Positions 211 through 21,666 of a stretch of DNA of 21,666 bases are shown here, piece after piece; within the stretch, counting starts at the first letter, position 1; each line of letters begins with the position of its first letter. The notes under the pieces were generated by a model. The model made no database searches. It was not told the origin of the DNA and worked only from the letters and a program-made list of their open reading frames with translations. The stretch comes from a virus, in the IMG/VR virus record IMGVR_UViG_3300008117_006924, positions 1-21,666 of that record; one strand, 5' to 3'. The translations under genes and the position numbers were made by a program.

Positions 211-891
211 TTAGCGGATTTCTGGGAACAGGCAATCCTGTATAAAATGCTGCACATCATCCTCTGACAGCCCTAAACTTACCATTACACGCGGTGTATG
301 CGGGTTCTGCTTCTGATTCTGTGCGTAATAGTTCTGCGCTGCTGTGGTGTTTGCAGCCTGTCCCAGCGTTTCTCCCACTGTGCTGAGATAGTGTTCTACG
401 GTGTCCTTGGCCATGGCTATGATTTGAGATAGTTCTTCCTCATTCTGCACATTGCCTGCTGCTACCATGCTGGGACTGAAAATGTTGGTGGCCCACTCCG
501 GTAGTTCTCGGACCCTGCGCCATTCCAGTTGGCTCACATAGTCTGCGAACCACTGCATCATAGGATGATCGGGATCCCCTGCTTTGGAGTAATCGTGGAA
601 ACAGCCAGTGATCTTGTTCTTCCCAGCTATAACATCAAATCCATAGATAGGACTGGGATCTGTGACATGTGGAAAAATGCAGCAGTGCATCATCCACAAT
701 CCTTTGGTATCTCTGGCATCTACTACATCTACGTGAGCTCTGCGATAACGATCGCTGGTCCACACACGATTCACCCAACCGGGCTGATTAAACCTTTCCA
801 TGCCAGGTTCATGAACTTCTATACCAGTTTGATTGAATTTAGTTTCTAGTAGCTGCTGAATTTCAATCAGCGTGTTCCACACTTGGCTCAT
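211..891 (-). CDS. Ferredoxin-dependent bilin reductase (PcyA/PebS/PcyX family)
   Basis: A 226-residue protein of the ferredoxin-dependent bilin reductase family, which reduces biliverdin IXalpha, the product of the heme oxygenase next door, to a phytobilin. Family features seen: DRYRRAHVDVVDAR around residues 47-60, the core DPSPIYGFDVIAG at 78-90 with the conserved Asp86 expected to protonate the substrate, an aromatic/acidic pocket segment HDYSK at 99-103, RELPEWA at 128-134 followed by a FSP turn, and a terminal FIQDCLFPEI with Asp219. The start overlaps the end of the heme oxygenase gene by 29 nt, so the two are probably co-translated. No phycobilisome genes are present and the surroundings are not cyanophage-like, which fits the PcyX-type branch described from non-cyanobacterial phages. 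The product (phycoerythrobilin or phycocyanobilin) cannot be read from sequence. The host must supply ferredoxin unless the phage encodes it elsewhere. Confidence 0.88.
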   Translation of the reverse strand: MSQVWNTLIEIQQLLETKFNQTGIEVHEPGMERFNQPGWVNRVWTSDRYRRAHVDVVDARDTKGLWMMHCCIFPHVTDPSPIYGFDVIAGKNKITGCFHDYSKAGDPDHPMMQWFADYVSQLEWRRVRELPEWATNIFSPSMVAAGNVQNEEELSQIIAMAKDTVEHYLSTVGETLGQAANTTAAQNYYAQNQKQNPHTPRVMVSLGLSEDDVQHFIQDCLFPEIR

Positions 892-1423
892 TGTTGAGAT
901 CTCTCATTATTTTTATGGCCCATTCAAAGGCCACACGAGCTTCATCACCTAGATCGTCTGTGAGCTCTGCACGGATCTGTTCTTTGAGTCGTTCTGGATC
1001 TTTAAATTTATAAAATCTACCTTGACCCGGCACACGTTTGGCCAAAATCTGTCCACCGTAAAGATCACCCATGTGTCGGCAGTATAGATGCGCTTTGATT
1101 AGATGTTTACGGGCAGGATCGTGTAACAGTTCTAGCAGATAGTTATGATAGTCCACTGTGCTAGGCAACCATGTATAACTGTGATCCTTGCCTGCTAGTT
1201 CGATGAAATCTTGATAGATGGCCCAGGTTCTTTCTATGTCAGGAAGATTAGCAAAATTTCCCTGTAATCTGTTTCCCATCTCTATGGGATTATAGATCAG
1301 CACCATCTGGTACAGATAGTTGGCATAATCTTCTACAGGTATATTGCCGCTGAGTAATTTCTTAGCGAATTCTGTGCGTTCTGCATCTGTGTGCAGGTCT
1401 TTGGTAATTTCTCTCAGGCTCAT
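863..1423 (-). CDS. ho1: Heme oxygenase (biliverdin-producing)
   Basis: A 186-residue heme oxygenase, which opens heme to biliverdin, CO and free Fe2+ using reductant and O2. The proximal heme-ligand helix is visible at the N-terminus (TKDLHTDAE, His11). The distal helix is YCRHMGDLYGGQILAKR at residues 114-130, with the Gly-Asp-Leu-x-Gly-Gly signature and Asp120, the residue that organises the catalytic water. The length is normal for a soluble bacterial or cyanobacterial HO1, without a C-terminal anchor. Its ATG overlaps the clpS stop by 4 nt and its end overlaps the bilin reductase start by 29 nt, making a tight clpS-ho1-bilin reductase operon. Together the pair would turn host heme into bilin plus iron. 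Whether the purpose is the pigment or the iron is open. Confidence 0.93.
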   Translation of the reverse strand: MSLREITKDLHTDAERTEFAKKLLSGNIPVEDYANYLYQMVLIYNPIEMGNRLQGNFANLPDIERTWAIYQDFIELAGKDHSYTWLPSTVDYHNYLLELLHDPARKHLIKAHLYCRHMGDLYGGQILAKRVPGQGRFYKFKDPERLKEQIRAELTDDLGDEARVAFEWAIKIMRDLNNEPSVEHAD

Positions 1424-1671
1424 TCCTGCTCCACAATGCCTTTTTGTTCTGCTATCTCAAAAGGATATATGCCTACTATAGAACTACCGGTTTCGTGTAT
1501 CTCTAGAGTGATTTCTTTGGCTTTGGATTCTGAATGTTTGAAAATGCCTGTGAGTAGTTCTATAACCAATTCCATGGGTGTTTTATCATCATTGAGAAAT
1601 ATCACCTTCCACAATGCCGGAGGAGCTAACTGAACTGTGGTTTTTTCTTTGACTTCAATTTCTGTAGACAT
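1420..1671 (-). CDS. clpS: ClpS adaptor of the ClpAP protease
   Basis: An 83-residue ClpS, the adaptor that delivers N-degron substrates to ClpA/ClpP and blocks other ClpAP substrates. The core reads WKVIFLNDDKTPMELV at residues 21-36, with the NDD motif (27-29) that holds the substrate alpha-amino group. His59 in LEIHETG matches the family's pocket histidine, and YPFEIAEQK near the C-terminus matches the ClpA-contact surface. The start is supported by AGGA 7 nt upstream. No clpA or clpP is in the window, so the protein presumably redirects the host protease. It follows hsp20 after a 10-bp hairpin and overlaps ho1 by 4 nt. Confidence 0.93.
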   Translation of the reverse strand: MSTEIEVKEKTTVQLAPPALWKVIFLNDDKTPMELVIELLTGIFKHSESKAKEITLEIHETGSSIVGIYPFEIAEQKGIVEQE

Positions 1672-1728: not shown

Positions 1729-2163
1729 CTACTTCACATCAACAATGTCAATGATCTTGGGTTTGGCCGATTCTGGGATGTCTCTAATCAACTTCACAGT
1801 CAGCATACCATTCTTGGTTTCCGCACCCACAACTTCAATGTGTTCGGCCAAAGGAAATTCTTTGATAAAATCACGAGTTGCAAGGCTGCGATGCAGATAC
1901 TGCTCTGCCGCATAATCTGTGGTCTGGCTTTCACCCTTGACGATCAGCACATTGTTTTCAACAGTCACTGAGATCTCGGTCTTATCGAAACCAGTCACTG
2001 CCAATTGAATGGCGTATTCGTTTTCGTCTAGTTTAATGATGTTGTGTGGCGGATAGTTGTTTGATACACTGTTGGCAAATCTGCGTTCCATTTGATCAAA
2101 CATGGTATCAAATCCCACAAGTGCTCTGCTTAGAGCGTCTATTCTAGCTAATTGATTGTTCAT
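1729..2163 (-). CDS. Small heat-shock protein (Hsp20/IbpA type)
   Basis: A 144-residue alpha-crystallin-type chaperone that holds unfolding proteins for DnaK. The alpha-crystallin domain spans about residues 40-130, with the signature AVTGFDKTEISVTVENNVLIVKG (listed as its two halves AVTGFDKTEI and VENNVLIVKG) and the closing GMLTVKL strand. The N-terminal arm LVGFDTMFDQMERRF and the terminal IIDI (an I-x-I type motif) are also present. A strong ribosome site, AAAGGAGA, precedes the ATG inside a leader almost identical to that of dnaK. It lies directly downstream of dnaK, so phage DnaK and Hsp20 are probably expressed together. Confidence 0.93.
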   Translation of the reverse strand: MNNQLARIDALSRALVGFDTMFDQMERRFANSVSNNYPPHNIIKLDENEYAIQLAVTGFDKTEISVTVENNVLIVKGESQTTDYAAEQYLHRSLATRDFIKEFPLAEHIEVVGAETKNGMLTVKLIRDIPESAKPKIIDIVDVK

Positions 2164-2219: not shown

Positions 2220-4115
2220 TTAGTCTGCTTTCTTCTCTGTGAAGGTAGCATCAACTACATCATCCTGTGCGGGCTGTGTGGGTTGGGCCTGAGCCTGTTC
2301 CTTAGCCTGCCTTTTCTCCAACAATGTTTTCATTGCAGGGAAAACCTTGTTAAGTTCTTCAGTGATTTTTTCTTTGTCATCACCTTTGACTGCTTCTTCT
2401 ACTTCTTTGATTACCGTTTCAAGTTCTGTTATTTCCGCATCACTGAGTTCACTGCGGAATTCTTCAAGATCTTTTTTCACTTCATGGATCTGTGCTTCTG
2501 CAGAATTTTTCACATCAATCAATTCGCGGGCTTTCTTGTCCGCTTCAGCATTAAGTTCTGCATCTTTGATCATGGCCTGTATTTCTGCATCGCTTAGTCC
2601 ACTGTTGGATTTGATAGTGATCTTGTTTTCTTTGCCTGTGCTTTTGTCTTTGGCAGAGATATGCATGATACCATTGGCATCAATATCAAATGTGACTTCA
2701 ATCTGAGGTTGGCCTCTGCGAGCAGGTGCGATACCTTCTAGATTAAATTCACCTAGCAATTTGTTATGCTGAACGAGTTCACGCTCACCTTGGAACACCT
2801 TAATGGTCACTGCAGGTTGATTGTCATCTGCTGTTGAGAATGTCTGTTGTCCTTTGGTAGGAATAGTGGTATTTTTCTGTATGATTTTTGTCATCACACC
2901 TCCCAGTGTTTCAATACCAAGGCTCAGTGGAGTCACATCCAGCAACAGTACATCTTTGCGATCACCGCCTAACACAGCGCCTTGAATGGCAGCGCCTACG
3001 GCCACTGCTTCGTCCGGATTAACATCTCTGCGAGGTGCTTTACCAAACAGTGCTTCCACGGCTTCCTGCACCTTAGGCATGCGTGTCATACCGCCTACTA
3101 GGATGACTTCATCAATGTCAGCGGCTGTGACTCCTGCATCTTTCATAGCGATCTTGCAGGGTTCTATAGAGCGTGTGATCAATTCAGCAACCAAACTTTC
3201 TAGTTTGCTGCGAGTGATCTTGATATTCATATGACGTGGGCCGCTGGCATCTGCTGTAATGTATGGCAGATTCACATCTGTCTGTGCAGAGCTAGACAAT
3301 TCAATCTTAGCCTTTTCTGCAGTTTCTTTGAGACGTTGCAGTGCTAGGACATCTTTGGTTAAATCAACACCAGTGTCTTTCTTAAACTCATCAACCAAAT
3401 AATCCATGATACGTTGATCAAAGTCCTCACCACCTAAGAACGTGTCTCCGTTGGTACTGAGTACTTCGATTTGTTTTTCGCCGTCTACGTTTGCTATTTC
3501 GATTATACTAACATCAAATGTACCACCGCCTAGGTCATATACAGCAATCTTTCTGTCTGCTTTGTCCTGTTTATCAACTCCATAACTCAGTGCGGCTGCA
3601 GTGGGTTCGTTGATGATACGCAGAACTTCTAGACCTGCAATCTTTCCTGCGTCTTTGGTAGCCTGCCGTTGGCTGTCGTTGAAGTAGGCAGGTACAGTGA
3701 TCACTGCCTGGGTGACAGTGGTCCCAAGATAGTCTTCTGCGGTCTTTTTCATTTTACGCAGAACTTCTGCGGAAATCTGTGGGGGTGCTAGCTCTTTGCC
3801 TGCGGCTCGTACCCATGCATCACCATTTGATGCTTCCATAATTTCATATGGCATCAGGTCGATGTCTTTTTGCACGGCCTGTTCTTTGAATTTACGTCCA
3901 ATTAATCTCTTGCTGGCGTAAATGGTGTTTTTTGGATTTGTAACCGCTTGACGTTTAGCCGAGGCACCTACCAGCACTTCATCATTGGCATAGGCCACGA
4001 TACTGGGCGTGGTTCTAGCGCCTTCATTATTTTCAATTACTTTGGGAATTCCATTCTCGATAACAGCCACACATGAATTGGTGGTGCCGAGGTCAATACC
4101 GATGATCTTAGACAT
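2220..4115 (-). CDS. dnaK: Molecular chaperone DnaK (Hsp70), full length
   Basis: A complete 631-residue Hsp70. The ATPase domain opens with [15 protein letters not shown] (residues 4-18), contains [14 protein letters not shown] near 193-206 and the hinge-proximal [13 protein letters not shown] near 340-352. The linker [13 protein letters not shown] leads into the substrate-binding domain with ETLGG, and a helical lid rich in Glu/Lys follows. The C-terminus ends [14 protein letters not shown], so the canonical EEVKD-like tail is altered. Length and motifs match bacterial DnaK with no truncation. A full dnaK is rare in phages. No dnaJ or grpE is in the window, so it either uses host cochaperones or has them elsewhere. 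The ribosome site AAAAGGAGA precedes the ATG, and an exact TATAAATA lies at 4193-4200, suggesting late expression. Confidence 0.97.
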
Positions 4116-5730: not shown

Positions 5731-7271
5731 TTTTTAATTTCTTGTATTCTCTGCCAAAGAGTGCGCTCATTCTGTTCAGCGTTTTGTGTGTAGGTTTCTT
5801 TGATTTTTTTTATCTGATTGCCTTGTTCGTCATTTTCCATCCAGCTCACAGATTTATCGGGGTCAATTTTTTCTTCAGCCCATTCTTTGGCCTTCACCGA
5901 TTCTTCTAGGCTAGGATTTTCTTCTGCCCATTTTTTAGCTTCTGTAACCGCGTCTTGAAAATCTGCCTGGGGTTTGAGATAGTCTTCCCACGGCAGATGA
6001 TCTATGACTCCTTTTTCTAAGAGGCGTCTTTGTAATTTTAAACTCATCGCAGGATGATCATGTTTCCAAGCAGTCATGGCCTGCTTTTCATTTTGGGGAG
6101 CAGATTCCATCAATTCTTGATCTTCTTGTTCACGTTCTTCCACCACAGCTCTCTCTGCTTCAGCGATCATCTGATTCCACTCTTCTAGGCCAGCTTTCTT
6201 TTCTGCTTCAACATGATCACTTTCGTCTAGACCTGCATCATCTTTGACAGTCACATCTTCATAGCCGGGATGATATGGCGCCTCTTGAACCTTGTCTTGA
6301 TATTTTATGTTTTCAAAAAGATCCATTTGGTTAGGAGCAGCCTTCACTGGGAACGGCCAATATGGACTGGCCCGTAAATGTGGGGGATCTATTCTTTCTG
6401 TCTCTTCTGGTTCGGTATCATCAGTTGTGACAGTAGGCGTGTCAACGGACACACTGCTTATAGGGCTGCCACCCTCCGTGGTTTCTTCTTCCTGTTTGCG
6501 GAACCATTGAAACGAATATTGGCTGGCTAACAACAATATAACTGCCAATGGATCAAATACAATAACAATAATAATGATTACCCAAGTTACTGCTTTTTCC
6601 AAAACATTGGCATCCGGATTATCGCCGTATATAAAATTGGCAATATATTTTATTGGCCCGACTTCTGCTTCGACTTTACGCACCTCAGCGGCAATAGGCG
6701 CCCTTTCTTCAGATAGTTGACTAATAACTTTCTGTTCGGCAGTGATCTCAGATTGGAGACGAGCACGTTCTTTTTGTTGTCCTCTCCGAATTGCCACTGC
6801 TTTATCAGCACCCTTTTCATCTTGGCTTCGGCCCATAACTTGGTCCACAGCTTCGTCCATCTGTCTTAGTGCTTTACGATTGGCTTCTATATTGTCTTTA
6901 GCAGTCTTAATTTTTTCATCGTAGATCGCAATCCTACTTTGCACATCACCCGATACTAGACTTTGATCACTGTGAGCTTTTGATAAAAATCCAAAGATAC
7001 CCATGCTGGTTATCAACATGAGAATGGCAATAGCGGCTAACAGATATGCCCGTATAAAATATGGTGCTCGACTCCAATTTTGTTTTAGCCATACGGTGCC
7101 GGCTAGTTTGCTGATTTCTAAGGCCACACCCATAACAATAATGGGAATAACTGCTGCCGAGAATATTGCCATCAGTCCAGCCACGCTGTACCAAATGGCC
7201 ACAGCAGATACAGTCAACCCGCTGAGCAAGGCCGACCAGGCAATGAATTTATCGCTTGTATGGATTCTCAT
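5727..7271 (-). CDS. Large coiled-coil membrane protein
   Basis: A 514-residue protein (516 if the TTG at 7277 is used; I prefer ATG 7271, with no strong ribosome site for either). Hydrophobic segments lie near residues 10-30, 33-52 and 72-96, and a fourth, AVTWVIIIIVIVFDPLAVILLLA, lies near 225-247. Between them residues 115-210 form a Lys/Glu-rich coiled coil (EEKIKTAKDNIEANRK-like heptads). The C-terminal half after 260 is hydrophilic, acidic and repetitive (AEE, EEW, KEWAEEK). Motifs such as GVALEISKLAGTVWLKQNW are familiar from an uncharacterised membrane protein common in marine T4-type phages. Function is unknown. An envelope or virion-associated role is possible. Confidence 0.85.
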   Translation of the reverse strand: MRIHTSDKFIAWSALLSGLTVSAVAIWYSVAGLMAIFSAAVIPIIVMGVALEISKLAGTVWLKQNWSRAPYFIRAYLLAAIAILMLITSMGIFGFLSKAHSDQSLVSGDVQSRIAIYDEKIKTAKDNIEANRKALRQMDEAVDQVMGRSQDEKGADKAVAIRRGQQKERARLQSEITAEQKVISQLSEERAPIAAEVRKVEAEVGPIKYIANFIYGDNPDANVLEKAVTWVIIIIVIVFDPLAVILLLASQYSFQWFRKQEEETTEGGSPISSVSVDTPTVTTDDTEPEETERIDPPHLRASPYWPFPVKAAPNQMDLFENIKYQDKVQEAPYHPGYEDVTVKDDAGLDESDHVEAEKKAGLEEWNQMIAEAERAVVEEREQEDQELMESAPQNEKQAMTAWKHDHPAMSLKLQRRLLEKGVIDHLPWEDYLKPQADFQDAVTEAKKWAEENPSLEESVKAKEWAEEKIDPDKSVSWMENDEQGNQIKKIKETYTQNAEQNERTLWQRIQEIKK

Positions 7272-7281
7272 GAACAAGTAT

Positions 7282-7710
7282 TTAGTTGGACCATGTCCAA
7301 CGATTATCTACGTCGTTAAAACATGCAGTGGCTCGCATAGTTTTTTCTACATTGTAGGCAATGGCCTGGATGTGTAATCTACGGCAATAGCCTGCACCAC
7401 TGGGCCATGTAGCGGATGTCATGGCCATACCGCTGGCATCTTTCTTGTACCAACGCACCACTTCACCATTGTCTGCATACATCACTGCATGATGAATGGC
7501 CTGATTGTAGGCGGTCTTTTGTTCATCATCTAGAGTCTTGAACCAACCAAAAGTTAGATCCGCTAACCTATTGGACCAAGCCGAGGTACTGTAATTAAAG
7601 AACCTGGGATTCTCTATATCATTGGCCAGTGCCGAACTACTGGCCGTGAGTATCAACAATTTCCCAACTACCATCAGGCAGCTGACAACTGAGCGCACGG
7701 TATTGAACAT
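7282..7710 (-). CDS. Exported protein with signal peptide, unknown function
   Basis: About 142 residues. The start is decided by a ribosome site, AAAGGTGG, 5-6 nt before ATG 7710, rather than the in-frame GTG at 7719. The N-terminus MFNTVRSVVSCLMVVGKLLI followed by LTASSSALA is a signal peptide with an Ala-x-Ala cleavage site before NDIE. The mature part contains DEQKTAYNQAIHHAVMYADNG, YCRRLHIQAIAY and ACFNDVDNRWTW, a pattern like the C-terminal domain of small bacterial surface antigens (a paired-Cys sheet ending D-x-x-W). It overlaps the preceding lipoprotein gene by 74 nt, unusual even here. Likely periplasmic. Role unknown. Confidence 0.75.
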   Translation of the reverse strand: MFNTVRSVVSCLMVVGKLLILTASSSALANDIENPRFFNYSTSAWSNRLADLTFGWFKTLDDEQKTAYNQAIHHAVMYADNGEVVRWYKKDASGMAMTSATWPSGAGYCRRLHIQAIAYNVEKTMRATACFNDVDNRWTWSN

Positions 7711-7960
7711 CGGTTCCACCTTTCTTCATCCATCCATTAAAGTATCCACAGTTAGAACCTATTCCAACTCTGGCCACAGTGAGTCGCTTGACCTGATCGT
7801 CTGAGCATTCCACAGTGGTACGGCTATTAACCCTCTCACCATTTTCTGTGACAATGGTTTGATTGGTGTAGCAGTACTGTGGTTTCTGTGCCTGTGTCTT
7901 TGGCGCTGAGCCACAGCCTACCAACAGCGCCAATGCAGTGCCGGCTATGATCAATTTCAT
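7637..7960 (-). CDS. Small lipoprotein with surface-antigen-like domain
   Basis: A 107-residue lipoprotein: MKLIIAGTALALLVGC gives a short signal peptide and a lipobox (LLVG-Cys16), followed by a Ser/Pro/Gln linker. The rest includes YCYTNQTIV, a Cys-rich core, and a C-terminal ALSCQLPDGSWEIVD resembling the 'ACrqpDGsW' end of bacterial 17-kDa-type surface antigens. The ATG overlaps the upstream lipoprotein stop by 4 nt. With its two neighbours it forms a trio of exported proteins just after the lysis genes. An outer-membrane spanin-like or superinfection role is possible but unproven. Confidence 0.78.
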   Translation of the reverse strand: MKLIIAGTALALLVGCGSAPKTQAQKPQYCYTNQTIVTENGERVNSRTTVECSDDQVKRLTVARVGIGSNCGYFNGWMKKGGTDVQYRALSCQLPDGSWEIVDTHGQ

Positions 7961-8442
7961 TGGCGTGCCAATTTTTGTTCTTTGGCTTCAGCGATCAGCT
8001 GATCGAACACAGGCTTTGGCATTTTCAACCTTACAAAGGTATAGTGGCGGCCCTGCATAGTGAAATGTCCAACTTCACGCTGAAGATGCTCACGGATAGT
8101 AGTATCACGCACCACATATGAGATCTTTGTGTAGGTAGATTTCTTGTCGTCTTTGAACTCAATACGTGTTTCGGAGTTAACTTCGGAGTTTATACGTTTG
8201 GCAAAGTTATTCATAGCGATGGCATACATCTGTTCTTCAGCGGCCTGTGCATGAATTGATTCACCTGCACCGCATGCATATGCCATGTCTTTTGACCACC
8301 AAAACCAACCCTCAGTTCCTGCCTGAGCACAACTCTGATACCAACTGGGTTGAGCATAGGATTTGCGATCCTCGATACTCTTCATTGACGAACAACCAGA
8401 AATGGCTGCTGCCATCAAACCAACTGCTAGTGCCTTTTTCAT
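7957..8442 (-). CDS. LPP20-like lipoprotein
   Basis: A 161-residue lipoprotein with signal peptide MKKALAVGLMAAAISGC and lipobox Cys17. The mature domain has EQMYAIAMNNFAKRINSEVNS, an amphipathic helix followed by strands (TRIEFKDDKKSTYTKISYVV) and a closing helix, the layout of LPP20-family proteins of Gram-negative outer membranes. GAAAGG lies 7 nt before the ATG, and a near-consensus sigma70 promoter lies at 8477-8505. It leads an operon of three exported proteins. Role in infection is unknown. Modification of the host envelope or superinfection exclusion fit the context. Confidence 0.8.
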   Translation of the reverse strand: MKKALAVGLMAAAISGCSSMKSIEDRKSYAQPSWYQSCAQAGTEGWFWWSKDMAYACGAGESIHAQAAEEQMYAIAMNNFAKRINSEVNSETRIEFKDDKKSTYTKISYVVRDTTIREHLQREVGHFTMQGRHYTFVRLKMPKPVFDQLIAEAKEQKLARQ

Positions 8443-11685: not shown

Positions 11686-11757
11686 TTACCTATTCATAAC
11701 ATACATAGTGATTTCAAAACCAAAACGCATGTCGGTTGCTGTTGGTGTGGTCCACAT
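11686..11757 (-). CDS. pqqA: PqqA, precursor peptide of the cofactor PQQ
   Basis: A 23-codon gene too short for most gene finders. The peptide begins MWTTPTATDMR and ends FGFEITMYVMNR, matching PqqA in length, in the Met-Trp opening, in the D-x-R-x-GFE core and, decisively, in the E-x-x-x-Y motif (Glu15, Tyr19). These two residues are cross-linked by the radical SAM enzyme PqqE and become the whole PQQ molecule. A consensus ribosome site (AAGGAGG, 11762-11768) precedes the ATG, and a terminator follows 12 nt after the stop. No pqqB, C, D or E is in the window, so the peptide must feed the host pathway (PqqD/E). PQQ serves methanol, glucose and alcohol dehydrogenases in the periplasm. The TATAAT at 11815-11820 is a likely -10 though its -35 is weak. 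I am confident of the family, less so of the physiological purpose. Confidence 0.9.
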   Translation of the reverse strand: MWTTPTATDMRFGFEITMYVMNR

Positions 11758-11761
11758 AATA

Positions 11762-11768
11762 TCCTCCT
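11762..11768 (-). promoter_or_regulatory. Consensus ribosome binding site of pqqA
   Basis: AAGGAGG, full anti-16S complementarity, 4-5 nt plus ATT before the pqqA ATG. It is the strongest ribosome site in the window beside that of the endolysin, and it argues that this 23-codon frame is translated. Confidence 0.85.
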
Positions 11769-11814
11769 TTGTTGATAAAATTACACACTGCATCGTGCTA
11801 GTATGTATCATTAT

Positions 11815-12623: not shown

Positions 12624-13061
12624 TTACTGATTAGCCTTATGAGCTTCTAAAGTTCTTGTGAACTTATTAGCATGGCTGCGTTCTGCCTTTGCCAAGGTCT
12701 CAAACCAATCCGCAATCTCGTCAAAACCTTCTTCACGAGCTGTTTTTGCCATACCGGGATACATATCGGTGTACTCATGGGTCTCACCAGCGATCGCTGA
12801 TTCTAGAGCTTCTGCTGTGGTCTTGGCCGGCATGCCTGTTCCTGGATCACCTGCCCCTCCGTCAATCAGATATTCCATATGACCGTGTGCGTGGCCTGTT
12901 TCTCCCTCTGCAGTAGAACGGAATACAGATGCAACATCATTGTCTCCGTTAACATCTGCTAGGTTTGCGAAATACAAATAACGGCGATTGGCCTGTGATT
13001 CACCAGCAAATGCCTCTTTCAAGTTTTCTTCGGTACGTGTACCTTTTACAGTTTGTGACAT
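12624..13061 (-). CDS. Rubrerythrin, erythrin domain only
   Basis: A 145-residue diiron four-helix-bundle protein of the rubrerythrin family, which reduces hydrogen peroxide. Ligand motifs are clear: [18 protein letters not shown] on helix 1, [18 protein letters not shown] on helix 2, [21 protein letters not shown] on helix 3 (listed as [10 protein letters not shown] and MYPGMAKTA), and [14 protein letters not shown] on helix 4. The C-terminal rubredoxin domain of classic rubrerythrin is absent, so an external electron donor is needed. GGAG lies 6 nt before the ATG. Its promoter has TTGATC/TATAAT with an inverted repeat in the spacer. It is likely a peroxide shield during infection and heads an operon with two small genes. 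Confidence 0.92.
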
Positions 13062-13879: not shown

Positions 13880-14225
13880 GTGGTTTAGGTTACAAGGTAT
13901 GTCCTACCCCGGACCGCTGTTTTTTAGGCAGCTAGGGCAAATCTGCTTTCATTAGCAGCACCGCGAACGGTGTTACCAGTGAAGCTCATTGCACTGAAGT
14001 CAAATGTATCAATGTATCTGCGTTTGCATTTACGAGTTTTGCTTGATTTACAGTCATCGCCTACTGTGTTGCCGTCTCTATTATCTCACCCTGTCGAAAC
14101 CATGGCTCGCCCAACTAAGCACACTCGGCACTAAAGCCTTGCTACCAGAATACTCGGTTCGGAGTATGCTTAGGTGGACGAGGCGGGAGTCGAACCCGCG
14201 TCCAGAATGCCTTCACTTTGAAGGG
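13880..14225 (-). ncRNA. ssrA: Circularly permuted (two-piece) tmRNA
   Basis: Transfer-messenger RNA that rescues stalled ribosomes, in permuted order. Reading the minus strand, the 3' acceptor piece comes first: T-arm GCGGG-TTCGACT-CCCGC (about 14184-14200) then CTCGTCC-ACC (14182-14173). After a linker comes the 5' end GGGCGAGCCATGGTTTCGAC (14112 down), the near-universal tmRNA start. GGGCGAG pairs with CTCGTCC as a 7-bp acceptor stem with one G-U. The linker folds by CTAAGCATACTC against GAGTGTGCTTAG, as expected of an excised loop. CCA is not fully encoded (ACC then T). The tag frame ends NESRFALAA-TAA at 13924; the resume codon may be GCA 13992 (22 residues) or GCT 13959 (11 residues). 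Downstream, GGTCC/GGAC and GGTA/TACC interleave as an H-type pseudoknot (13896-13915). Confidence in tmRNA is high, in exact ends moderate. Confidence 0.93.
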
Positions 14226-14239
14226 ATTACAACAATTCC

Positions 14240-14308
14240 TTACATGAAAACTTCAATCAATACAAATACAACAATAAGAATTGCTACAATGAATTGATAG
14301 GCTTTCAT
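14240..14308 (-). CDS. Possible 22-residue membrane mini-protein
   Basis: ATG 14308 to TAA 14240 encodes MKAYQF followed by an uninterrupted hydrophobic stretch (IVAILIVVFVLIEVFM), a single predicted membrane span. It lies between the cold-shock gene and the tmRNA. There is no clear ribosome site and the frame is tiny, so it could be chance in AT-rich sequence. The clean span and basic N-terminus make it worth listing. Confidence 0.35.
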   Translation of the reverse strand: MKAYQFIVAILIVVFVLIEVFM

Positions 14309-16886: not shown

Positions 16887-17309
16887 TTACATATTTAACT
16901 TACTATGTTTGTAATTCTCAATCATTTCGTAATTAAGATGAAGCTTTGGAGAACCTTTTTTGTAGTCGTAAGATAATAGCTCACGTATTGACTTATCAGG
17001 AGCTGTGTAGAAAAACTTTTGAATAGGATATCTGATATCGTTTTCAAGAAATTTATAATACATCAGCTCTACCCATTCTGCCATTCTTCCCCAATTCGTG
17101 TGTTTGTTTTTCCACATTACATTATTTGGGCGGAATCCAGTAAGGTGATTGTAAGTGTCATATACTTCGAGTTTTTTTAGATACTCTTTTTGCTCTTCTT
17201 CTGTAGCAGGTTCATAACCGTATTTGGCATAGTCCATGGTCATCTTTGAATTTTGGTTTAAATGGTCAAAGGCATTTTTCTTTGGGATATCAAGTACATT
17301 TGCTACCAC
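16887..17309 (-). pseudogene. C-terminal part of a split radical SAM protein
   Basis: A 140-residue open frame from GTG 17309, overlapping the end of the upstream frame within ATGTGGTAG. Segments DIPKKNAF, MTMDYAKYGYEPATEEEQ and WVELMYYKFLEN resemble the C-terminal tail of B12-domain radical SAM proteins of large phages, which follow the enzyme barrel. Read with the upstream gene it looks like the end of the same protein with roughly a third of the barrel lost and a frame change at the junction. It could still be translated by coupling as a separate subunit. I infer disruption from family architecture, not from a visible stop in a known gene. Confidence 0.5.
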
Positions 17310-18268
17310 ATTCTCTCATCTATTAACCCTTGTTGTAATATTTCCGGATTCATTCCTTTACCAATGACCTTTCCCGATTCGTGGTTAAAAGTTTCAATGC
17401 CGTACAGATGAGAGACAACCTGCATTCTTATCAGTTCATCCCATTCCTTTTGCCCACGCTTCACAAGTAGGTCAGGACGAATAAACGCCCAGAAAAAAGG
17501 TTGAAAGTCCAGCTGCTGTACGACGTCAGCAAATTTTGTAATTTTTTCAGTGCGGTCATTGAATGTTTCGTCGCTGATCATGTATCGAGTAATACCGAAT
17601 CGATCATACGCATCTTTGATTTGTCTTTCAAAACTATCGGTGTCTCTAGTCCAATCTCCCTTGACTCCGATCATTGGATGATTACAATAGTCGCAGACAA
17701 ACTTACAACCCCTGCTGAATTCTATTGAAATCCATTCATATGATTGAAGGAAATCACGATCCTCATATATAATAACAGGATCTCTCCAAGGAGCGGCATC
17801 CCATCCGCCTTGTGCAACTTTTCTACCTTTCACGGTTGTAAACTCTATGGCCTCACCGGCGTCAAACAAATACTTTAATAGTTTTATAAAGATTGTTTCT
17901 GCATACCCGGTGATTTGATAGTCAATATGTTTTGTATTGATTTCTGCAAAAGTTTGAGAACCGTAGATGATTAATAGATTTGGATGATTTTCTTTAATCC
18001 ATGCGGCGGTTTGTTCAGCTAATTCTGGCCATTGCAGGAATAACGATCCAAACCCTATGAACTTCATATCCCCATCGATTCTTGATATCAGAAGTTGTTT
18101 TATTTCTTCAAATGTCCAGAACCGGAAAAAATCTATTACTTCTATATCCCATCCATGCTTACGTATCTCTGTGGCTATTCGATGACCTCCACCTGATCTA
18201 CCTGCCTCATCTTCTCTAGCAATAAGAAACAACAGAGCCTTATACTTACTTTTTGCAATAATTTTCAT
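17303..18268 (-). CDS. Radical SAM protein, probably C-terminally truncated
   Basis: A 321-residue protein. Residues 1-135 form a Rossmann-like domain of the B12-binding type (RSGGGHRIATEIRKHGWDIEVIDFF, cited as SGGGHRIATEIRK and WDIEVIDFF), though the cobalamin DxHxxG motif is not evident. The radical SAM cluster motif CxxxCxxC is Cys188, Cys192, Cys195 in SRGCKFVCDYC, followed by YMISDETFNDR (the 'GE/SDE' strand) and HLYGIETFNHESGKVIGKGMNPE. The frame then stops, well before the barrel would be complete. It is not PqqE, because there is no SPASM cysteine cluster. Related phage proteins of unknown substrate are longer. The following frame carries what looks like the missing tail. Confidence 0.75.
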   Translation of the reverse strand: MKIIAKSKYKALLFLIAREDEAGRSGGGHRIATEIRKHGWDIEVIDFFRFWTFEEIKQLLISRIDGDMKFIGFGSLFLQWPELAEQTAAWIKENHPNLLIIYGSQTFAEINTKHIDYQITGYAETIFIKLLKYLFDAGEAIEFTTVKGRKVAQGGWDAAPWRDPVIIYEDRDFLQSYEWISIEFSRGCKFVCDYCNHPMIGVKGDWTRDTDSFERQIKDAYDRFGITRYMISDETFNDRTEKITKFADVVQQLDFQPFFWAFIRPDLLVKRGQKEWDELIRMQVVSHLYGIETFNHESGKVIGKGMNPEILQQGLIDERMW

Positions 18269-18451: not shown

Positions 18452-19552
18452 TTATATAGCCGGAAGAGCATCGTAGTCAAGATTTTCACCCATGACGCCT
18501 ATCACATAGTTGGTGCTTTCGGTTTCTTGCAGAGCACTCTGTTTCTTCGAAGTGTCCGTGTGCTTATTGAACCAAGGAATCGGAGTTGATCTCGGAGCAG
18601 TGGCCTGATACTTGATGCCTATGTCTTTCAGCGCACCTACAGCGGTATAGTCTACAAAATCTTTGAGGATAGCTGCATTTAGTCCAATCACTGGACCCAG
18701 TTTAAACAGATGATCTGCCCAGGCCTTTTCTTCAGCTATGACATCCAGATACAGCTGATATACTTCTGCCTCACATTCTGCTTTAGCTGCTGCGAACCTT
18801 GGATCTTCCTTGACCACTTGATTGATCAGCCATGCAGTCCACCCTTTGTGTAACAGTTCGTCTTGTAGGATCAGGCTGATAATGTTGCCATTGCCAATGA
18901 AGATGCGATTCTCTACCATGGCCAGGCTTGTGGCAAATGATACCATGAAGCGGAATGCTTCTAGTGCGTAACTGGCATTGAGTGCCATCCAAATGCCTCT
19001 GACATGATCTTTTTCAGAGATTGCCTCACCTATCTCTTTTCTGCAGTTGATTTCATGCAGTTGATCATAGTATCTGCCCACGCTGGCAGCCATGTCTACA
19101 ATTTCCTGTGTGTCATGGATAGTATTGAACACATCCTTGGGCACGTTGTAGATATTGCGAATGATATGGCTGTACGAACGGCTGTGTATGTTGGTTTCAA
19201 AGAATGTCCAATTGTAGATCAGTGCTTCCAGTTCTGGTAGGCTGATCACAGGCATAAACACCTGGCTGGGAGCACGACCTTGCAGGCTGTCTAGAGCTGT
19301 TTGGCGCAGAAGGTTTGAAGTGAATATGTGCTTGACCGCGGCACTGGCATCTTTGAAATCGTTGGCATCCTTTGTGAGATTGATTTCTTCTGGCACCCAA
19401 AAGAATCCTCGAGCTGTTTTTTCGTAGTCAGCTATCTTGTTGTATTTGACTTCTTCGAATCGCTGTATGGTTACCGGACCGGCTGGGTCAAGAAACATCT
19501 TACGATTCACATAATCAGTTTTGTTGGTTAGATTGTATTGTCTTTTGCTCAT
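18452..19552 (-). CDS. nrdB: Class I ribonucleotide reductase small subunit
   Basis: A 366-residue NrdB, the diiron radical-carrying subunit that supports dNTP synthesis. Ligand sites: the Asp of ALDSLQGR, HSRSYSHIIRNI with the His ligand and the radical Tyr (as E. coli His118/Tyr122), YALEAFRFMVSFA with Glu, and LQDELLHKGWTAW with Glu/His. Before the His the sequence is ETNIHSRSY rather than ETIHSRSY, so the Glu that is usually three residues before it is four before, a one-residue insertion at a metal-ligand turn. The C-terminus VMGENLDYDALPAI is the NrdA-binding tail. nrdA is not in the window. Start overlaps the aldolase stop by 4 nt. Confidence 0.95.
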   Translation of the reverse strand: MSKRQYNLTNKTDYVNRKMFLDPAGPVTIQRFEEVKYNKIADYEKTARGFFWVPEEINLTKDANDFKDASAAVKHIFTSNLLRQTALDSLQGRAPSQVFMPVISLPELEALIYNWTFFETNIHSRSYSHIIRNIYNVPKDVFNTIHDTQEIVDMAASVGRYYDQLHEINCRKEIGEAISEKDHVRGIWMALNASYALEAFRFMVSFATSLAMVENRIFIGNGNIISLILQDELLHKGWTAWLINQVVKEDPRFAAAKAECEAEVYQLYLDVIAEEKAWADHLFKLGPVIGLNAAILKDFVDYTAVGALKDIGIKYQATAPRSTPIPWFNKHTDTSKKQSALQETESTNYVIGVMGENLDYDALPAI

Positions 19553-20208
19553 TTGTATTTTCCCGATGCAAGTACTATCTTGCAGATGTGTTCAAGTCTT
19601 TCGATGTGTTCGTAGGCTCGCCACGGAGTCACATCAATGGCCACAACCCCGTGTCCTTTTATTCCTACTATATCAAATTTAATATTTCCGTCTCGATCTA
19701 ACCCTAGGTTACGGTGGCAGGCATCACCAAGCTCTTGGCTGATTGGCGGAACATCTCCTACATTTGGCGCCACTCGGGTGTACCGATTCAGTTCTGGAAA
19801 AGCATCACTGATAGTGCTGAGATCAATACCGGCATGCATGGCTGCGATACAGTAGGTAGGATGTACATGTACTACCACCCGCACATCATCCTTGTGCTGA
19901 CCTAGTTCTCTCTGCAGTCCAAAATGCAGAGGCATTTCACCGCTGGGTTTTAGATTCCCGCTGAGATCATCCTGTTCTATCACACTCCAATGATAATCAA
20001 ATACAGCTGATCCTACACCGCTGTTGATGGTGCGTGTTACTGAGATTTTTTTGAACATCTCAGGCTGCATATTTTGTTTACGAACACCAGTAGGAGTGAT
20101 ATAGAAATGATCACGATCGTGATGTCGTATCGAAATATTACCATCTCTACTGGTAATCCAATTACGTTTGTAAGCGTCTACTAGTATATCACAACAGGTT
20201 TCTAGCAT
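19549..20208 (-). CDS. Class II aldolase/epimerase family protein
   Basis: A 219-residue zinc enzyme of the class II aldolase/adducin family (fuculose- or rhamnulose-phosphate aldolase, ribulose-phosphate epimerase type). Motifs: SRDGNISIR (20-28), KPSGEMPLH (87-95) with catalytic Glu91, VHVHPTYCIA (113-122) with zinc ligands His114 and His116, and IKGHGVVAIDVTPWRAYEHIERLEH (listed as IKGHGVVAI and YEHIERLEH) with His186. All three zinc histidines are present. Overlaps of 20 nt with the SOD gene and 4 nt with nrdB place it in the Fe-S/SOD/RNR operon. Such genes recur in aquatic phages. A role in sugar-phosphate supply for DNA or glycan is likely but the substrate is unknown. Confidence 0.88.
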   Translation of the reverse strand: MLETCCDILVDAYKRNWITSRDGNISIRHHDRDHFYITPTGVRKQNMQPEMFKKISVTRTINSGVGSAVFDYHWSVIEQDDLSGNLKPSGEMPLHFGLQRELGQHKDDVRVVVHVHPTYCIAAMHAGIDLSTISDAFPELNRYTRVAPNVGDVPPISQELGDACHRNLGLDRDGNIKFDIVGIKGHGVVAIDVTPWRAYEHIERLEHICKIVLASGKYK

Positions 20209-20740
20209 TAATAAAATCCCAATTAATAATTTTCCATTGATTTTCTAGATATTTTGATTTGTCTGATTGATAGTCTAAGGCCCATGCATGTTCCCACCAA
20301 TCTATCAATACTATAATATCTTTTTTAATTTCATGATTCACAATAGTCTTTATCTTGCCATCTTCGGCTAAGTAGGCCCACCCACTGCCCTGTATCGCCA
20401 TGGCTGTTTTTTCAAACTGTTGCTTGAACTGATCAAAGGTTTTATAATGTTCTTCGATGAAACTCAGTATAGGTCCTGTTGGCGTGTTGTTTCTACCGGG
20501 TGCCTGATATTGTTGGAACAGAGTATTGTGCAGGAATGCGCCAGCTTCATTGAACTTGGCATCACCTTCATTGCTGTTATAGCGTTTGGCATAGCCCTGT
20601 GCCAGTTCGCCGTAGTGATAGTTGATGGTGTCTTCGCTGATGCTGGGAGCCAGTTCATCACGCTCATAGGGCAATGGCAGTATTTCTAATCGATGCGGTC
20701 TCCCTTCGTTGAGCACGTTGCGTATAAAACTATAGGTCAT
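20189..20740 (-). CDS. Iron/manganese superoxide dismutase
   Basis: A 183-residue Fe/Mn-family superoxide dismutase. Metal ligands are all present: His42 (NYHYGELAQGY), His71 (GAFLHNTLF), Asp147 and His151 (IDWWEHAWALDY). Tyr50 and GSGWAYLA are also conserved. Oddities: the usual K-H-H after the first ligand is E-L-A, and the residue that orients the metal-bound water looks like His (VNHE, His136) instead of Gln, as in His-type members of the family. Metal preference cannot be assigned. It sits between the A-type Fe-S carrier (5-nt gap) and the aldolase, consistent with protecting Fe-S clusters. Confidence 0.92.
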   Translation of the reverse strand: MTYSFIRNVLNEGRPHRLEILPLPYERDELAPSISEDTINYHYGELAQGYAKRYNSNEGDAKFNEAGAFLHNTLFQQYQAPGRNNTPTGPILSFIEEHYKTFDQFKQQFEKTAMAIQGSGWAYLAEDGKIKTIVNHEIKKDIIVLIDWWEHAWALDYQSDKSKYLENQWKIINWDFINARNLL

Positions 20741-20745
20741 CGTGT

Positions 20746-21075
20746 CTATACTCTAAAACTTTCGCCACACCCACAGCGATCTCGTTCGTTGGGATTAACA
20801 AAATCAAATCCTTCGTTGAGTCCTTTCTTGGTCCAATCCATTTCTATGCCTTCTAGATAAACCAAACTCTTAGGATCTACAAACACATGCACACCGTGAC
20901 TGACAAAACTGACATCATCAGAGCGAGGACCATAAGGTGCATCTACATATTCCAGCACATAGGCCAAGCCACTACAACCTGTGGTTTTAACTCCAACACG
21001 GATGCCAATTCCTGTGGGTCTTTGTGCAAGATTGAATTTAACCTTGTCAGCGGCGGTTTCAGTGAGCGAGATCAT
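20746..21075 (-). CDS. iscA: A-type iron-sulfur carrier (IscA/ErpA family)
   Basis: A 109-residue A-type carrier that receives Fe-S clusters from IscU and hands them to apo-proteins. The three cluster cysteines are Cys34 ([10 protein letters not shown]) and Cys101, Cys103 (RCGCGESF), and the domain is full length ([14 protein letters not shown] at the start, [14 protein letters not shown] near the end). It overlaps the iscU gene by 17 nt and is one of two A-type carriers here. Phage-borne carriers of this family are known from aquatic viromes. Confidence 0.95.
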
Positions 21076-21445
21076 GTTTCTTTTTATAGTCCTCTATCGC
21101 GGCTTTGATAGCATCTTCTGCAAGTATGCTACAATGTATTTTAACCGGTGGTAGGGCAAGTTCTTCAGCAATTGTGCTATTAGTAATCGTTCGTGCCTGG
21201 TCAAGCGTTTTTCCCTTGACCCATTCTGTGACGAGGCTTGAGCTGGCGATTGCTGATCCACACCCGTATGTTTTGAATTTTGCATCTGTAATAATCCCAT
21301 CTGTTACTTTGATCTGTAGTTTCATTACATCCCCGCAGGCAGGAGCACCCACCATGCCAGTGCCCACATCTGTATCAGCTTTATCGAAACTGCCTACGTT
21401 ACGTGGGTTTTCATAATGATCAATTACTTTGTCGCTGTATGCCAT
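21059..21445 (-). CDS. iscU: Iron-sulfur cluster scaffold IscU
   Basis: A 128-residue IscU with all assembly residues: Cys37 and Asp39 ([10 protein letters not shown]), Cys62 ([11 protein letters not shown]), and His104/Cys105 ([16 protein letters not shown]). The LPPVK motif (98-102), the contact for the Hsp70-type chaperone HscA, is kept, so the scaffold can use a host or phage Hsp70 cycle. AAGGA precedes the ATG. The order A-type carrier, iscU, A-type carrier, SOD forms an Fe-S module. The cysteine desulfurase (IscS) and IscR are not in view, so sulfur must come from the host or from genes beyond the right edge. Confidence 0.96.
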
Positions 21446-21454
21446 ATTGTATCC

Positions 21455-21666
21455 TTATACGCTAAAACTGCTGCCACATCCACAAGTGCTTTGAGCATTG
21501 GGATTAGTGATTACAAATTGGCTGCCTGAAATATCCTCTTTATAGTCTATACTAGCGCCTTGTAGATACTGCATGCTCATAGCATCTACCAACACTTTGA
21601 ATTTTTCTAATGGTATCTCAAAGTCGTCTTCATTTGTTATTTCGTCGAAAGTAAAACCATAACTGA
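21455..21666 (-). CDS. Second A-type iron-sulfur carrier, C-terminal part
   Basis: The frame enters from the right edge and ends at TAA 21455. The visible C-terminal 70 or so residues include [33 protein letters not shown] and [11 protein letters not shown], the end of an ErpA/IscA-type carrier with its terminal Cys-Gly-Cys. It is clearly different from the carrier at 20746-21075 but plays the same kind of role. It lies 9 nt before the iscU start, so the three are one operon. Confidence 0.9.

Follow-up and report, generated by a model that had tools for sequence, protein, structure and literature searches.

Phage cassettes that pair a heme oxygenase (HO) with a bilin reductase, namely hemO-pcyX and hemO-pcyA/X-valaS, have been published for marine and freshwater phages, and the roles discussed for them include the supply of iron and of chromophores for phytochromes (PMC11480375). 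In that work, Wegner et al. described an Asp in place of PcyA Glu76 as specific to PcyX, and the freshwater phage enzyme CB_2, which is without this Asp, was found to be a true PcyA that makes phycocyanobilin (PMC11480375). On the side of the host, PqqA, ribonucleotide reductase and a class II aldolase have been described in T4-like phages of Lake Baikal that were assigned to Methylophilaceae (PMC7678222), and the tmRNA of Melnitz has been described as SAR11-like though its host belongs to the Methylophilales (PMC9004378).

We have analysed a whole viral record of 21,666 bases (called the window below), which is a fragment with open reading frames cut at both ends. The explanation that we find the best overall, and reasonably probable, is that the window carries a phage hemO-pcyX cassette that would convert heme to the pink pigment phycoerythrobilin (PEB) in a methylotrophic Burkholderiales host and would act in heme and iron turnover.

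The hemO-pcyX pair and its gene block

The original prediction had placed an overlapping pair of heme oxygenase and bilin reductase genes at 211-1423. We have confirmed this pair on the minus strand, where both products score above their Pfam cut-offs and the pair is the last part of a DnaK-Hsp20-ClpS-HemO-PcyX block:

211..891, minus strand: pcyX, ferredoxin-dependent bilin reductase (FDBR) assigned to the PcyX type, 226 aa (PF05996, E 9.2e-14, 52 bits with a cut-off of 31; 5owg; tree; Asp at the Glu76 position)
863..1423, minus strand: hemO, predicted heme oxygenase, 186 aa (PF01126, E 7.7e-21, 75 bits with a cut-off of 23; HmuO/HO-1 alignment; proximal His)
1420..1671, minus strand: clpS, ClpS adaptor (PF02617, E 6.3e-22; neighbour of the pair in 107/115 loci)
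1729..2163, minus strand: hsp20, small heat-shock protein (PF00011; same block as the pair)
2220..4115, minus strand: dnaK, Hsp70 chaperone (NCBIfam DnaK models; same block as the pair)

The hemO and pcyX genes share 29 bases. As the start codon of HO likewise overlaps with the stop codon of clpS, the three genes clpS, hemO and pcyX look translationally coupled. In IMG/VR, near-identical copies of the pair are found on independent contigs. Among distinct loci with room for the neighbour, FDBR directly follows HO in 101 of 102, which together with the overlap corresponds to a two-gene cassette, and HO directly precedes FDBR in 107 of 108. Both genes are under purifying selection, with a dN/dS of ~0.07 (median 0.066 for PcyX and 0.069 for HO). 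Since independent copies, linkage and selection agree, the pairing is far from chance.

The HO aligns with Corynebacterium HmuO and mammalian HO-1. All 108 aligned relatives have the proximal His, and the GD-x-x-GG motif of the distal helix is nearly always retained. By its Pfam family, proximal His and GD-x-x-GG motif, the window protein is thus predicted to be a heme oxygenase of the HO-1/HmuO family.

The block around the pair is also conserved. In the loci fetched with HO or PcyX, DnaK, Hsp20 and ClpS each adjoin the pair in 107 of 115. To avoid circularity, Hsp20 has been used as the query as well, which reached only relatives of ~50-100% identity; in this set, DnaK, ClpS, HO and PcyX are all present in 47 of the 48 distinct loci that extend at least 3.5 kb downstream. 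In this lineage, the pair thus counts as near-core. Exceptions exist, as L033 and L072 have HO-PcyX without the DnaK-Hsp20-ClpS block and the pair of Pelagibacter phage Mosig adjoins 2OG-Fe oxygenases and a ferrochelatase. These cases mean that both genes can move together and that the chaperone block is not required.

Two further observations concern the surroundings of the pair. In L174, a nitrilase/amidohydrolase-like gene (6922-7971) is inserted between HO and PcyX, and a similar gene lies near a PcyX fragment at L203 469-1332. Downstream of the pair, genes resembling CsgF, CsgG, curlin repeats and FecR (named by eye) are often seen, e.g., in L006, L009 and L012, in the csgF-csgG-curlin-FecR order that Melnitz has in its annotation.

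The fixed DnaK-Hsp20-ClpS neighbourhood could speak for stress protection, in which HO-PcyX and the chaperone block would detoxify heme and peroxide during infection, the release of iron being incidental. The window encodes two more proteins that would fit such a function:

12624..13061, minus strand: rubrerythrin-like di-iron protein (PF02915, E 2e-26)
20189..20740, minus strand: Fe/Mn superoxide dismutase, SOD (PF02777, PF00081)

However, the pair is also kept in L033, L072 and Mosig, where the chaperone block is missing, and the neighbourhood may be historical. We regard this explanation as unlikely.

Assignment of the reductase to PcyX

Among solved chains, PcyX_EBK42635 (5owg) is the closest to the window reductase (E 1.7e-71), followed by Synechocystis PcyA (E 3.4e-14), and the identity to PcyX is ~50% over the full length. 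The sole full-length match in annotated phages is that of pelagiphage Mosig (50% over 98%), while cyanophage PcyA gives partial matches only, at 24-31%. In a maximum-likelihood tree of 60 FDBRs, the window falls in a clade (support 100/98) with 36 related IMG/VR sequences, two misbinned phage contigs, Mosig and 5owg, and the sister of this clade is alphaproteobacterial PcyA (100/99). Within the cyanobacterial-type PcyA, the cyanophage PcyA sequences branch separately; PebS joins PebA.

The position of PcyA Glu76 is occupied by Asp in the window, 5owg and Mosig. Counted from the alignment of 105 distinct IMG/VR sequences, 99 have Asp, five Asn and one (L099) Glu at this position, and the equivalents of His88 and Asp105 are invariant. 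The window active site, Asp/His/Asp, matches that of PcyX. Overall, the tree, the active-site residue and the nearest solved structure support the PcyX type named in the original prediction, and the placement is apart from both PcyA and PebS.

As the window enzyme has the PcyX Asp, unlike the PcyA CB_2, it is predicted to yield PEB. It might alternatively be a PcyX by descent whose product is phycocyanobilin or another bilin, considering that phylogeny is a poor guide to regiospecificity in the FDBR family (PMC13193486) and that CB_2, from freshwater, proved to be PcyA. But CB_2 was reported without the Asp that the window has (PMC11480375), and the window is ~50% identical to PcyX along its length, which makes a different product rather improbable here.

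Some relatives deviate at this catalytic position, where PcyX has Asp and PcyA has Glu. L128, L129, L142, L147 and L150 form a supported sub-branch of PcyX with Asn there, which may make another product. The L099 FDBR, from a 149-kb contig, lies on a long branch with Glu and may, as CB_2, represent a true PcyA.

Light-harvesting genes and the probable host

HO and FDBR are classic auxiliary genes of cyanophages, and the cyanophage PcyA and HO are indeed matched weakly. A cyanophage light-harvesting pair is nevertheless highly improbable, as the window falls outside both cyanophage PcyA and cyanophage PebS in the tree, the photosystem reaction-centre genes psbA/psbD are found in none of 30 related contigs while the positive control, cyanophage P-RSM1, scored, and the window has a betaproteobacterial-type tmRNA and PqqA. 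Since the window is a 21.7-kb fragment, the absence of photosynthesis genes has been judged on the related contigs (up to 383 kb; many partial). The original prediction had noted that phycobiliprotein and photosystem genes are missing, and none is seen in the window; the claim, however, rests on the longer relatives, where no phycobiliprotein scores above the cut-off in 30 contigs. Four PF00502 (phycobiliprotein) matches have been rejected, all being below the cut-off and in frames of 2300-5800 residues. Neither the tree nor the search for marker genes gives the combination that would have spoken against the prediction, i.e., a place inside cyanophage PebS/PcyA together with cyanophage markers, and a cyanophage origin has been rejected on these two grounds.

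Three features of the window bear on the host:

11686..11811, minus strand: pqqA, PQQ precursor peptide, core peptide 11692-11754 (TIGR02107, 35.6 bits with a cut-off of 20; PF08042)
13924..14285, minus strand: two-piece (permuted) tmRNA, betaproteobacterial type (RF01850, 132 bits with a cut-off of 84; RF04321; ARAGORN)
18452..19552, minus strand: nrdB, ribonucleotide reductase small subunit, di-iron family (PF00268, phrog_86)

The tmRNA and PqqA on which the earlier reading of a heterotrophic host relied are both real. The best Rfam model of the window tmRNA is the betaproteobacterial one, and a tmRNA of this type is above the cut-off in 21 of 31 PcyX contigs. PqqA is found in 13 of 33 PcyX contigs, the window counted among them. 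Together with the lack of photosynthesis genes in 30 related contigs, these features support heterotrophy. We have also seen an unannotated PqqA peptide above the TIGR02107 cut-off at 76140-76196 (plus strand) of Melnitz (MZ577097.1), a phage isolated on Methylophilales. As in the Baikal phages, PqqA, NrdB and a class II aldolase are all present in the window, and the phage carrying the pair is T4-like. From the tmRNA type, PqqA (also in Melnitz) and the Baikal-phage-like gene set, we infer that the host quite probably belongs to the methylotrophic Burkholderiales and is Methylophilaceae-like. The type of the tmRNA does not strictly identify a host, because Melnitz combines a Methylophilales host with a SAR11-like tmRNA.

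Other searches have not narrowed the host. Host methanol dehydrogenase was not found in the related PcyX contigs, and a comparison of the tmRNA with 398 Pseudomonadota genomes by BLAST gave short matches only, in the tRNA-like part. An FDBR scan of bacterial genomes gave L173-L175 as best hits; as L173 and L174 share the Hsp20-ClpS-HO context, these look like phage contigs misbinned in unrelated MAGs, and they name no host.

The tag encoded by the window tmRNA (13924-14285, minus strand), ANADTLIHLTSVQ*, does not end in ALAA as is usual. Its frame is shifted by a tandem duplication of 8 bases (GATACATT) in comparison with L212 and L217, where the tags have the end ...ANESRFALAA; the shift is either a real variant or an assembly error. 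Unusually long tag peptides (~20-33 aa) occur in L212, L215-L217, L397-L404, L406 and L408, many with a TFEYF-like stretch ahead of a degron-like end. A radical SAM protein is encoded at 17303-18268 (minus strand), on the same contig as PqqA.

Heme turnover, iron and the bilin as possible purposes

Both protein families, the PcyX membership, the intact catalytic residues, the linkage, the purifying selection and the neighbourhood can be read from the sequences, and on this basis a course of reactions may be proposed. HemO would convert host heme to biliverdin IX-alpha, Fe2+ and CO, and PcyX would convert biliverdin to PEB by a four-electron reduction with host ferredoxin. The ferredoxin is presumably that of the host because no 2Fe-2S ferredoxin (PF00111) is found in 31 contigs; Mosig has one. 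Heme would be cleared in the infected cell, and its iron could be passed to the phage Fe-S assembly proteins, NrdB and di-iron proteins. By taking biliverdin away, PcyX would let the turnover of HemO continue. The Fe-S assembly genes of the window are:

20746..21075, minus strand: IscA-like Fe-S assembly protein (TIGR02011, 144.6 bits; TIGR00049 above cut-off)
21059..21445, minus strand: iscU, Fe-S scaffold (TIGR01999, 223 bits, above cut-off)
21455..21664, minus strand: ErpA-like Fe-S protein, truncated by the window end (NF010147, 1.1e-31; PF01521)

As the purpose of the pair, we tentatively prefer heme turnover with iron release, with PcyX as the biliverdin-removing partner. Of 31 PcyX contigs, 24 encode IscU, which was found in neither Mosig nor Melnitz nor P-RSM1. 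The window further encodes IscA, ErpA, SOD, NrdB and rubrerythrin. On the other hand, HemO alone frees iron, yet PcyX is equally conserved; AlaS, present in 9/30 related contigs, would form a futile cycle for iron together with HO; and the marine member Mosig is without IscU. Iron supply, one of the two purposes proposed originally, therefore agrees with IscU/IscA/ErpA/NrdB but leaves the retention of PcyX unexplained.

A role centred on the bilin ranks close behind heme turnover with iron release and is a possibility to be taken seriously. Here PEB or an intermediate would bind a host photoreceptor or another bilin-binding protein and so alter signalling in the host, or serve as an antioxidant or photoprotectant. 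PcyX is retained beside HO at nearly all loci under purifying selection, AlaS in those nine relatives would increase the flux to bilin, and a functional phytochrome is assembled with the bilin that the related enzyme of phage CB_2 makes (PMC11480375). The selection on PcyX and the AlaS of some relatives suggest that the bilin matters too. Against such a role, no PHY domain is found in the 30 related contigs or in Mosig, and no phycobiliprotein scores above the cut-off. The manipulation of phytochromes, the other purpose proposed originally, thus lacks support within the phages, and no accompanying PHY gene, as in a phytochrome-supply cassette of the Bradyrhizobium ORS278 type, is seen in these contigs. 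A search of the literature on phytochromes in Methylophilaceae gave nothing usable. PEB, unlike phycocyanobilin, is not known to form a photoactive phytochrome.

Comparison with known systems

Beyond the cited papers, this work adds the near-core status of the pair, its fixed DnaK-Hsp20-ClpS context, the host signal from PqqA and the beta-type tmRNA, the association with IscU, and the Asn-type sub-branch. A published phage pigment pathway is now tied to a fixed block of genes and to a particular type of host, which is probably found in the methylotrophic betaproteobacteria. We put forward, with some reserve, that in a large T4-like lineage on methylotrophic Burkholderiales the heme-to-PEB pathway would be a near-core function, fixed behind DnaK-Hsp20-ClpS and joined by phage Fe-S assembly, and not a sporadic accessory for light harvesting, and that the Asn sub-branch may make a different bilin. 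Because freshwater Methylophilaceae are cultured, the question of purpose becomes testable, and infection under iron or heme limitation could tell iron supply from a bilin role.

Melnitz and the Baikal phages VP_139 and VP_266 are T4-like and have PqqA, as the window does, but Melnitz has no heme oxygenase or bilin reductase annotated. The alphaproteobacterial PcyA (Falsiroseomonas, Acetobacteraceae; AX clade), the sister group in the tree, is 31-34% identical to the window PcyX, and its genes are chromosomal. The hemO-pcyA/X-valaS cassettes (Wegner et al. 2024, PMC11480375) likewise combine a phage HO with an AX-clade reductase in non-photosynthetic hosts; their CB_2 enzyme is a true PcyA while the window has the PcyX Asp, and no AlaS reading frame is seen in the window, a fragment, or in the two nearest contigs searched. 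Pelagibacter phage Mosig EXVC030M likewise has an overlapping HO followed by PcyX, and differs from the window in the neighbours of the pair, in encoding a ferredoxin and in being without IscU and PqqA. Among solved structures the closest is PcyX_EBK42635 (5owg), a marine phage phycoerythrobilin synthase from a marine metagenome: the predicted window enzyme resembles it in clade, in full-length identity and in the Asp/His/Asp site.
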